Shown here: one piece after another, positions 2,856-38,200 of the stretch
Layout of the letters: each line of letters starts with the position of its first letter
How positions within the stretch are numbered: position 1 is the stretch's first letter
Assembly (NCBI GenBank): GCA_018823105.1
Contig: JAHJJH010000105.1
Span: 1 to 38,485 of the forward strand
Source of the DNA: Verrucomicrobiota bacterium
Lineage (GTDB): Bacteria > Verrucomicrobiota > Kiritimatiellia > CAIQIC01 > JAGNIJ01
Length of the DNA stretch: 38,485 nucleotides
Direction: 5' to 3'
Program-made: the position numbers and the translations under genes
The notes under the pieces: model-generated
What the model saw: the letters and a program-made list of their open reading frames with translations, nothing else
Databases searched by the model: none
Told to the model about the DNA's origin: nothing

Positions 2856-3743
2856 ATGAAGATTTTCATTGCCGGATCGAAGGGGCAGCTCGGTCTCGAT
2901 TGCCTTGAGGTCTTCGGCCGCGAGGCCGAGGTCGCCGGGCTCGACCTCCCGGACCTGGACATCGCCGATCCGGCCTCGGTGCGCCGGGCCCTCTCGGCCT
3001 TCAAGCCCGACGCCGTGATCAACGCCGCCGCGTACACGCAGGTGGACCGCGCCGAGACCGAGCGCGACGAGGCCCGCCGCGCCAACGTCGAGGGGCCGCG
3101 CGTGCTGGCCGAGTACGTCCAGCGCCACGGCGGCGTGCTCGTGCATATCTCGACCGACTACGTCTTCGACGGCCGGCGGCCTCCGCCTGAACCCTATGTC
3201 GAGACCGACGTGGCCAACCCGGTCTCGTGGTACGGCGTCACCAAGCTCGACGGCGAGAAGGCGGTCCAGCAAGCCACCGAACGCCACATCATCCTCCGCG
3301 CGGCCTGGCTCTACGGCGCCGGCGGGCAAAACTTCCTGCGCGCGATCCTGCGGGCGGCGCTCGCCCAACCGGAGGAGCCGCTGCGCGTGGTGAACGACCA
3401 GTTCGGCTCGCCCACGTGGTCCTGGCGCCTGGCGCTGCAGATCCAGAAAACGCTGGAGGCCGGCGGCCGCGGCCTCTACCATGCCACGGCGGAAGGCTCG
3501 TGCACCTGGTACGACCTGGCACGGGAGTTCTTCGGCCGGATGGACCTGAAGCACGAGGTCCGGCCGTGCGCCACGGACGAATACCCGACGCCGGCCCACC
3601 GACCGCGGAATTCGATCCTGGAGAACACCCGGCTGAAGGCCACCGGGATCAATATCATGCGGCCGTGGGCGGAGGACCTGGAGGAATTCGTGCGGCGCCA
3701 CGGCGAGGCCCTGCTACGCGAGGTCAAGGAAGAGAAGACATGA
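2856..3743 (+). CDS. rfbD: dTDP-4-dehydrorhamnose reductase
   Basis: Catalyses the NADPH-dependent last step of dTDP-L-rhamnose synthesis, in the cytoplasm. 295 residues, normal for RmlD. The Rossmann motif GSKGQLG is at residues 7-13, the [10 protein letters not shown] strand at 98-106, and the short-chain dehydrogenase pair Tyr126-xxx-Lys130 in YGVTK. The start was placed at 2856 rather than the in-frame GTG-type start at 2844, because [13 protein letters not shown] is the standard N-terminus. A strong ribosome-binding site is not visible. It overlaps rfbB by 4 bases (ATGA), so the two are probably translationally coupled. The gene order rfbD-rfbB-rfbA-rfbC differs from the common enterobacterial B-D-A-C order. 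Confidence 0.93.
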
Positions 3744-4795
3744 AAAACCTGCTGGTCACGGGCGGTTGCGGATTCATCGGCGCGAACTTCATCCGCTACC
3801 TGCTGGAGGAGACGCCGGATTTCCCGGGCCGCGTCATCAACGTGGACAAGCTCACCTACGCCGGTAACCCGTTGAGCCTGGCCGACGTCGAGCGGCAGCG
3901 TCCCGGGCGTTACGTCTTCATCAAGGCCGACATCTGCGACCGTGCGCGAATGGCGCAGGTCCTGGACGGGCACGCCGTCGACGCCATCGTCCACTTCGCC
4001 GCGGAATCGCACGTGGACCGCTCGATCGTCCGGCCGGACGATTTCATCCAGACCAACATCATCGGCACGCACGTGCTGCTGGAGCTTTTCCGGGAGCGCC
4101 GGGAGCGCATCGGCCGTTTTCATCACATCAGCACGGACGAGGTGTTCGGCTCGCTCGGCCCCGCGGGGTACTTCACCGAGGAGACCCCCTACCAGCCCAA
4201 CAGCCCCTACTCCGCCTCCAAGGCCGCGTCCGACCACCTCGCGCGCGCCTACCACGCCACGTACGGGCTGCCCGTGACCATCTCCAACTGCTCGAACAAC
4301 TACGGGCCATACCAATTCCCCGAAAAACTCATCTCGCTGATGATCCTCAACGCCCTTGAGGGCAAGCTGCTGCCCGTGTACGGCGATGGGAAGAACGTGC
4401 GCGACTGGCTCTATGTCCGCGATCATTGCACGGCGGTCTGGCGGGTGATGACCCGCGGCGCGGCCGGCCGGACCTACAACGTCGGCGGCCGGAATGAGAT
4501 GCCGAACCTCGACGTCGTCCACCTGGTCTGCGACCTCGTGGACGAGCTGGCCGGGCCGCGGCCGGGCGGCGCGCCGCGCCGGGAGCTGATCACCTTCGTC
4601 AAGGACCGGCCCGGCCACGACCGGCGCTACGCGATCGACTGCTCCCGGATCGAACGCGAGCTGGGCTGGCGCCCGGAGGAATCGTTCGAGACCGGCCTGC
4701 GCAAGACCGTCCGCTGGTACCTGGAGCACGGCGCGTGGGTGGACCAAGTGCGGACCGGCGAGTACCAGCGATGGATCAAGGCGCATTACGGGTGA
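3740..4795 (+). CDS. rfbB: dTDP-glucose 4,6-dehydratase
   Basis: Converts dTDP-D-glucose to dTDP-4-keto-6-deoxy-D-glucose with bound NAD, the second step of the rhamnose pathway. 351 residues, the usual length. It has TGGCGFIG at residues 7-14 for NAD binding. The catalytic Thr-Asp-Glu lies in ISTDEVFG (132-134), and Tyr157-xxx-Lys161 in YSASK. The signatures [13 protein letters not shown] and [11 protein letters not shown] are typical of RmlB. The ATG overlaps the rfbD stop (ATGA) and is preceded by AAGGAAGAG. The gene is followed by a perfect palindrome and the phased palindrome array, so rfbA and rfbC may be transcribed partly on their own. Confidence 0.95.
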
Positions 4796-4816: not shown

Positions 4817-4850
4817 GCCCGGATCACAGTTAATTAACTGTGATCCGGGC
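4817..4850. repeat. Perfect 34-bp palindrome downstream of rfbB
   Basis: The arms GCCCGGATCACAGTTAA and its exact complement meet without a spacer at 4833/4834. As RNA it could fold into a long hairpin with a small AT loop, but the T-run (4862-4866) starts only 11 bases later, so it is not a classic intrinsic terminator. As DNA it could be a dimer-protein operator. It sits 21 bp after the rfbB stop and just before the palindrome array. Confidence 0.7.
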
Positions 4851-4861
4851 CCGGTGCGGAC

Positions 4862-5008
4862 TTTTTCCAATCATTGAAAAACTCGACTCGCTTTTTTTCC
4901 AAACATTGGGAAAATAGGGCCGGTATTTTCCAATGTTTGGAAAACCCGGGGTCAAAAGTTTCCAATGTTTGGAAAAATCCTGGCGTTTTTTTCCAATCAT
5001 TGGAAAAA
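4862..5008. repeat. Phased array of five TTCCAA-N3-TTGGAA palindromes upstream of rfbA
   Basis: Five copies of a short palindrome, each extended by flanking T and A runs, are centred at about 4872, 4905, 4935, 4967 and 4998. Gaps are 33, 30, 32 and 31 bp, close to three turns of B-DNA. The 3-base centres are TCA, ACA, TGT, TGT and TCA. The first copy has a degenerate right arm (TTGAAA), and the second has an extra G. The last copy ends only 11 bases before the rfbA ATG and touches its AGGGAG ribosome-binding site. A cooperative regulator-binding array is inferred; a structural or repeat-family origin is also possible. Confidence 0.8.
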
Positions 5009-5019
5009 GGGAGCATCGA

Positions 5020-5895
5020 ATGAAAGGCATCATCCTGGCAGGCGGGTCGGGGACGCGGCTCTATCCCATCACGCGGGCGGTGAGCAAGCAGCTCCTGCCG
5101 ATCTACGACAAGCCGATGATTTACTATCCGCTCTCCGCGCTGATGCTCGCCGGCATCCGGGAGATTCTGGTCATTTCGACGCCGGAGGATCTGCCGCGGT
5201 TCAAGCTGCTGCTGGGCGATGGCGGGCAGCTCGGCCTGCGGTTTGCCTATGCCGAGCAGCCCCGCCCCGAGGGGCTGGCCCAGGCATTCGTGATCGGGCG
5301 CGAGTTCATCGGCCAGAGCCCCGCGGCCCTGATCCTGGGCGACAACATTTTCTACGGGCATGGCCTGCACGAGCTCCTGCGCCGCGCGGGGAAATTGACG
5401 GAGGGCGGCCTGGTCTTTGGCTACCCGGTGAAAGACCCCGAGCGCTATGGCGTGGTAGAGTTCGATCCGACGGGCCGCGTGTTGAGCATCGAGGAAAAAC
5501 CGGCGAAGCCGAAATCCTCCTTCGCCGTGCCGGGGCTCTATTTCTACGACGGCGAGGTGACGAAAATAGCGGCCGATCTGAAACCGTCCGCGCGCGGGGA
5601 GCTCGAAATCACGGACCTGAACCTGGAATACCTGCAGCGCGGCCGGCTCCGCGTGGAGCTGCTCGGCCGGGGCATGGCCTGGCTGGACACCGGCACGCAC
5701 GAATCGCTCCAGCAGGCCTCGAACTTCGTGCAGACGATCGAGGATCGGCAGGGGCTGAAAATCGCCTGCGTCGAGGAGATCGCCTACCGGCTCGGCTATA
5801 TCAACGCGGCGCAACTGAAACGGCTGGCGGCGGACATGATGAAAAATGATTACGGACGCTACCTGGCGCGCCTTGCCGCGGAGAAGGAGACCTGA
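5020..5895 (+). CDS. rfbA: Glucose-1-phosphate thymidylyltransferase
   Basis: Makes dTDP-glucose from dTTP and glucose-1-phosphate, the first step of the rhamnose pathway and its usual feedback point. 291 residues, the normal length. The nucleotidyltransferase signature GGSGTRLYP is at residues 8-16, with Lys23 in [28 protein letters not shown] for the metal/nucleotide site, and [13 protein letters not shown] near the C-terminus. The start at 5020 is preferred over in-frame starts inside the palindrome array because it has AGGGAG 9 bases upstream and gives the canonical MKGIILAGG. The ribosome-binding site abuts the last palindrome, so a protein bound there could affect initiation. rfbC follows after 3 bases. 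Confidence 0.95.
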
Positions 5896-35333: not shown

Positions 35334-35340
35334 GGCGGTG

Positions 35341-35437
35341 TTCGCTGGGGGTGCCCGCTGAAGGCGGGCTGAGAGTTCCCGGGTGTCGGGATAACCCCTT
35401 GAACCTGTACGGGTCATGCCGGCGGAGGGAAGCGATG
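35341..35437 (+). ncRNA. TPP riboswitch (THI element)
   Basis: The conserved blocks appear in order: GGGGGTGCCC, GGGCTGAGAG, AACCCCTTGAACCTG, GGGTCATGCC and GGCGGAGGGAAGCG. This is the standard thiamine pyrophosphate aptamer. It lies 90 bp before cytX. No clear terminator hairpin with a U-run was seen between it and the start, so control may be translational, hiding the GAGGAG ribosome-binding site of cytX. Confidence 0.96.
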
Positions 35438-35527
35438 AGGTTCGTTCACAGGGCTACGGGGCGTTCACCGCGAAGGATTCTCCCGTTTTCTCCCCGTCCG
35501 CGTCACCCGTCTTTTTGAGGAGAAGCC

Positions 35528-38117: not shown

Positions 38118-38200
38118 GTTTCCAAACATTGAAAAACCCAGCGCTTGTTTTTCCCAATCATTGGAAAAATCGGCCGGATTATTTCCAATGTTTGGAAAAA
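38118..38200. repeat. Phased array of three TTCCAA-N3-TTGGAA palindromes before thiD
   Basis: Copies are centred at 38127, 38159 and 38190, so gaps are 32 and 31 bp, as in the array before rfbA. The centres are ACA, TCA and TGT. The first copy again has the degenerate right arm TTGAAA, like the first copy of the rfbA array. The array begins 3 bases after the thiC stop. Confidence 0.8.

Follow-up and report, generated by a model that had tools for sequence, protein, structure and literature searches.

REP/BIME elements are short palindromes that form intergenic clusters and reach hundreds of copies; the arrays described here differ from them in having no link to RAYT, in their helical phasing, in their conserved positions and in their coding copies. 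Nucleoid-occlusion sites of the Noc/SlmA type are tens of palindromes for a dimeric protein, distributed across the chromosome, but they have another sequence and are not known to stand in phased rows. Paired NrdR boxes are two palindromes about three helical turns apart; they, too, are unlike the arrays, being two boxes of another sequence at single promoters, and a literature search for such pairs found none. The HIP1 element of cyanobacteria is alike in being a very abundant, chromosome-wide palindrome typical of one lineage, but to our knowledge it does not occur in helically phased arrays. It is an 8-mer with a link to methyltransferases (PMC4390886). Lrp-family regulators bind palindromic sites whose centres lie two or three helical turns apart, and in Ss-LrpB about 100 bp are wrapped around a set of three dimers (PMC2995911). 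Their operator arrays (Ss-LrpB, FL11) resemble the present ones in the palindromes, in the two- or three-turn spacing on the same face and in the clustering of several sites (PMC2995911); the difference is that Lrp/AsnC arrays are described as regulatory regions of target genes, whereas the sites in Kiritimatiellia number hundreds to more than 1000 per chromosome and also lie inside genes. The initial annotation knew of no named system with such a layout, and this holds within the literature searched: nothing comparable, i.e. hundreds to more than 1000 helix-locked palindromes that are conserved and tolerated in genes, was found. The system of helically phased palindromes is real, spans the class and has no description in that literature.

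The window, i.e. the whole stretch of 38,485 nt that was analysed, belongs to a genome of the class Kiritimatiellia that was assembled from a metagenome (G000; 3.56 Mb in 356 contigs, with 90% completeness). Its first array, A, consists of the five TTCCAA-N3-TTGGAA palindromes that had been recognised before rfbA. No strand is assigned to any of the sites. Two carry one mismatch (4865..4879, TTCCAATCATTGAAA; 4897..4911, TTCCAAACATTGGGA) and three are perfect (4928..4942 and 4960..4974, both TTCCAATGTTTGGAA; 4991..5005, TTCCAATCATTGGAA). Start-to-start gaps are 32, 31, 32 and 31 bp; the values given initially (33, 30, 32, 31) were off by one in the first two. The rfbA-like gene lies 3' of the array on the plus strand (5020..5895; nucleotidyltransferase PF00483, E 8.4e-75), with its likely ribosome-binding site GGGAG at 5009-5013 and its start ATG at 5020, gene calls being from a simple caller of our own with uncertain exact starts. 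The last site, thought to touch the ribosome-binding site, is adjacent to it, ending 3 bp short. Upstream, in the same cluster and on the same strand, is a gene that reads as rfbB/dTDP-glucose dehydratase-like (3740..4795; gene call only).

A second array, B, absent from the initial annotation, has three sites with gaps of 32 and 31 bp: 38120..38134 (TTCCAAACATTGAAA, one mismatch, 4 bp past the thiC-like stop), 38152..38166 (TCCCAATCATTGGAA, one mismatch) and 38183..38197 (TTCCAATGTTTGGAA, perfect). It is located between thiC-like and thiD-like genes, so named by reading, and appears to lie inside a thiamine gene cluster led by a TPP riboswitch (35337-35447). This riboswitch is the sole Rfam match in the window; no Rfam family matched at the arrays. 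The window holds nine matches at up to two mismatches, against 0.91 expected and a maximum of four in 100 dinucleotide shuffles.

The whole genome contains 100 perfect TTCCAA-N3-TTGGAA sites, 63 adjacent pairs among them, and no match to the reversed control. In this strict form, which was counted across the phylum, pairs are present in 40 of 388 genomes, and 39 of these belong to the window's class. The looser core TTCC-N7-GGAA was counted within the class only; pairs at about 31.5 bp occur in 101 of 193 genomes, including all 28 of the window's own order; the highest counts are 1358 and 1048 (the latter in G004), against 0-1 for the reversed control. Families of this one class differ in copy number, from 0 to more than 1300 pairs. 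A single 3.88 Mb contig (G122) carries about 1240 sites, or about one per 3 kb, compared with 11 control matches. In genus g41, the two large genomes G445 and G448 have 15 and 10 pairs. Seemingly array-free relatives in the own order have variant half-sites (TTCCAT/TTCCAC), and the spacing is kept in the variants to which lineages have drifted (TTCCAA-TSA, TTCCAA-GSC, TTCCAT/TTCCAC). Named records with the same arrays are mostly assemblies of Kiritimatiellae, Lentisphaerae and Verrucomicrobia. Three phased pairs were also seen outside the class, in another family of the phylum (G097). A phage origin was rejected, with only 19 such stretches in 2.9 million viral contigs.

The spacing follows the DNA helix. 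In contiguous DNA chosen blind to spacing (G122, G417, G004), a period of 10.50 bp fits best (R 0.88, n=118, phase offset 0.12 bp), and removal of all distances of 29-34 bp leaves a period of 10.55 bp (R 0.80, n=44); distances within one array are non-independent, and p-values for phasing should not be taken literally. This is the same-face spacing that had been anticipated for a cooperatively binding dimeric protein, and the predicted genome-wide peak at 31-32 bp is present. Across 164 loci, many of which were fetched by the pair pattern, distances likewise concentrate at multiples of 10.5 bp, with clusters at 21-22, 31-32, 52-53, 62-63, 82-84, 93-95, 104-105 and 124-126 bp. Rows reach up to seven sites. 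Gaps in G417 are mostly 32 bp, and in G008 and G012 gaps of 22 bp occur at the ends of arrays; several arrays in the latter two (L195:7082, L196:6842, L197:3689) are symmetric, with a two-turn gap of 22 bp at each end, e.g. 22-31-31-30-22. The intervening bases, initially considered unrelated, are not wholly so: in the window's genome, 24 spacer pairs share at least 13 bases, against 9 expected from column shuffling, and in G041 spacer families repeat between arrays in the same order. Unit duplication does happen, as the G041 families show, but duplication of one repeat unit cannot account for the phase, because distances of 21-22, 31-32 and 52-53 bp all occur and spacers differ.

Arrays are found in all gene contexts. 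In G004 and G417 together, sites are mostly intergenic and occupy 12 of 22 convergent, 14 of 24 divergent and 27 of 81 tandem gaps, at distances to gene ends that are near random placement. In 400 kb of G122 there are 143 sites compared with 2 for the control; 97 are coding, fall in all three frames (37/35/25) and carry the same extended consensus. The sites of this genome (G122:C1, L223-L242) are single, and they encode recurrent peptides such as FQTLEK. No common function was found among the genes that neighbour arrays. The view of an rfbA- or promoter-specific element is not supported by these counts, since arrays are about equally common in convergent and divergent gaps and also lie inside genes. 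More generally, the arrays are not promoter elements, being present in coding sequence as well as in gaps of all three orientations; a terminator element was likewise rejected.

Positions are conserved between species. For the congener G001, 20 array regions and two fetched earlier were compared with G000 contigs, with arrays masked. Fourteen of the 22 arrays have a matching G000 region, most with an array and one with a single site in the same place; because most of the G000 contigs had been picked for carrying arrays, this cannot be taken as an unbiased rate of conservation. A rearrangement disrupts the order in one of the 14. Chance alone would not be expected to place matches at one and the same point of the alignment. 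G001 retains the rfbA array, two units shorter, and a conserved array falls within a frame that reads as an AddA/UvrD-type helicase-like protein (L146/L304). In 11 orthologous arrays, the fixed bases of the sites (12 per site) are identical at 350 of 360 positions (97%), compared with 52 of 90 (58%) for N3, about 70% for spacers and 71-87% for flanks; the register of N3 and spacers in unequal arrays was taken as the best match, which if anything favours N3 and spacers. This difference shows selection on the DNA. Between orthologous sites, the N3 centre is often reverse-complemented (TGT/ACA, TGA/TCA) while the arms are fixed (L166 and L290-L308 versus the window and L141-L157), as if the loop between the arms could invert.

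The arrays are probably the target of a DNA-binding protein that acts chromosome-wide. The preferred reading, which we consider likely, is that they are sites for a putative dimeric protein that binds cooperatively along one face of the DNA, in a layout like that of Lrp/AsnC. Each palindrome would be bound by one dimer, probably of a helix-turn-helix protein; its half-sites, TTCC and GGAA, have their centres 11 bp apart, and the two would be read in successive major grooves, one in each. Adjacent dimers, on the same face and most often three, but also two or more, helical turns apart, would touch each other, and an array of 2-7 sites would thus make up a single cooperative assembly, able to stiffen, wrap or loop about 50-200 bp. 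The role would most likely be chromosome organisation or broad modulation of transcription by a sequence-specific nucleoid-associated protein, not control of rfbA itself. A range of 0 to more than 1300 pairs between families is unusual for an essential chromosome protein and argues against this reading. A stronger version can be put forward tentatively: an undescribed form of bacterial chromatin, in which a class-specific protein may assemble on the phased palindromes, along the whole chromosome and inside genes too, to form wrapped or filamentous particles positioned by the DNA. If a protein does bind the arrays, its binding map could be readable from sequence across the whole class. This would open to direct test both the idea of a bacterial chromatin coded by position and the way in which a chromosome protein and its sites, with their TSA, GSC or other centres, evolve together.

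As a special case of the preferred reading, the binder might be the class's own Lrp/AsnC protein, whose octamers or chained dimers would wrap the arrays as in Ss-LrpB and FL11; this identification is possible but doubtful. Palindromes two or three turns apart on the same face are typical of Lrp (PMC2995911). Every array-bearing genome that was searched has Lrp/AsnC, family f5 lacks both Lrp (in 6 of 6 tested genomes) and arrays, and in AM-2014 (L060) and G010 the lrp start is preceded, at about 140-180 bp, by a phased pair. Against this, most lrp promoters of array-bearing genomes have no site, only a few genomes showing one there, and the array-free families f6, f8, f12, f14, f16 and f22-f24 have an Lrp orthologue whose HTH is similar. 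The preferred reading, too, is weakened by the occurrence of the class's one full-length Lrp in array-free families, where its recognition helix is similar, and by the small number of genomes with a site at the lrp promoter. Neither the presence of Lrp nor its DNA-reading helix tracks the arrays between array-bearing and array-free families; the class Lrp is a compatible candidate binder that gains no support from covariation. Other candidates are missing from array-bearing genomes: Fur (PF01475) was not found in G004, G007, G049 and G099, TetR (PF00440) in G051 and G183, or Y1_Tnp (PF01797) in array-rich G041, G099 and G183, absences that rest on genomes about 88-98% complete. Fur, TetR and Y1 transposase are thus unlikely as universal partners, since array-rich genomes lack them. 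On the same grounds, a Fur-family 7-1-7 box and a TetR-type (SlmA-like) operator were rejected.

Several readings dispense with a chromosome-wide protein. Operators of a classical transcription regulator with rfbA among its targets, which we regard as unlikely, would suit the end of array A just ahead of the rfbA ribosome-binding site and its retention in G001, but not the arrays between convergent genes, in coding sequence and probably within the thiamine operon, the lack of shared function among neighbours, or the rfbA homologue of G005, which has no array. An iterated word without structural role, whether for DNA uptake or HIP1-like, is quite improbable: G122 does look similar, with its density of about one site per 3 kb, two thirds of the sampled sites in genes and a HIP1-like over-representation in both coding and non-coding DNA, and cyanobacterial HIP1 is a comparable iterated palindrome (PMC4390886), yet neither DNA uptake nor HIP1 accounts for phased neighbours or for rows of up to seven sites. 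Still less credence is given to a dispersed repeat, selfish or neutral, of the REP/BIME or MITE type that a RAYT (Y1) transposase would have spread. The sites are palindromic and mostly intergenic in several genomes, and the recurring spacer families of G041 also speak for such a repeat; set against this are the three array-rich genomes without Y1_Tnp, its presence in array-free genomes, the conservation of positions across species, a phase kept despite spacer drift and the single sites of G122 in genes and in all frames.

It is highly improbable that the palindromes function as RNA hairpins in transcripts, as terminators or processing sites. A hairpin of 6-8 bp is possible at each site by reading, and many sites have a stop codon no more than 30 bp away, but the 10.5-bp phasing of the DNA, the use of divergent gaps, coding sites in all frames and near-random placement relative to gene ends are at odds with such a role. 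Least probable of all, and rejected, is intrinsically curved DNA from phased A-tracts, an alternative raised in the initial annotation on the view that the A and T runs are in helical phase. Such runs do flank the sites in the window's genome, about 8 bp either side of each centre; at -8/+8, however, they are about 1.5 turns apart and cancel, and their mean resultant (0.34) equals that of random placement (0.35). In G417, moreover, the flanks are AAAT/ATTT instead.

A perfect 34-bp palindrome, GCCCGGATCACAGTTAATTAACTGTGATCCGGGC, lies ahead of array A at 4817-4850. Its 24-bp core has near copies elsewhere in the same genome (L154:3569, L158:6490, L159:9989), and a relative, TATCACAGTTTATAAACTGTGATA, is present in two copies in G001. 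The GCCCGGATCACAGTTAATTAACTGTGATCCGGGC palindrome and its near copies are a second dispersed palindrome family.
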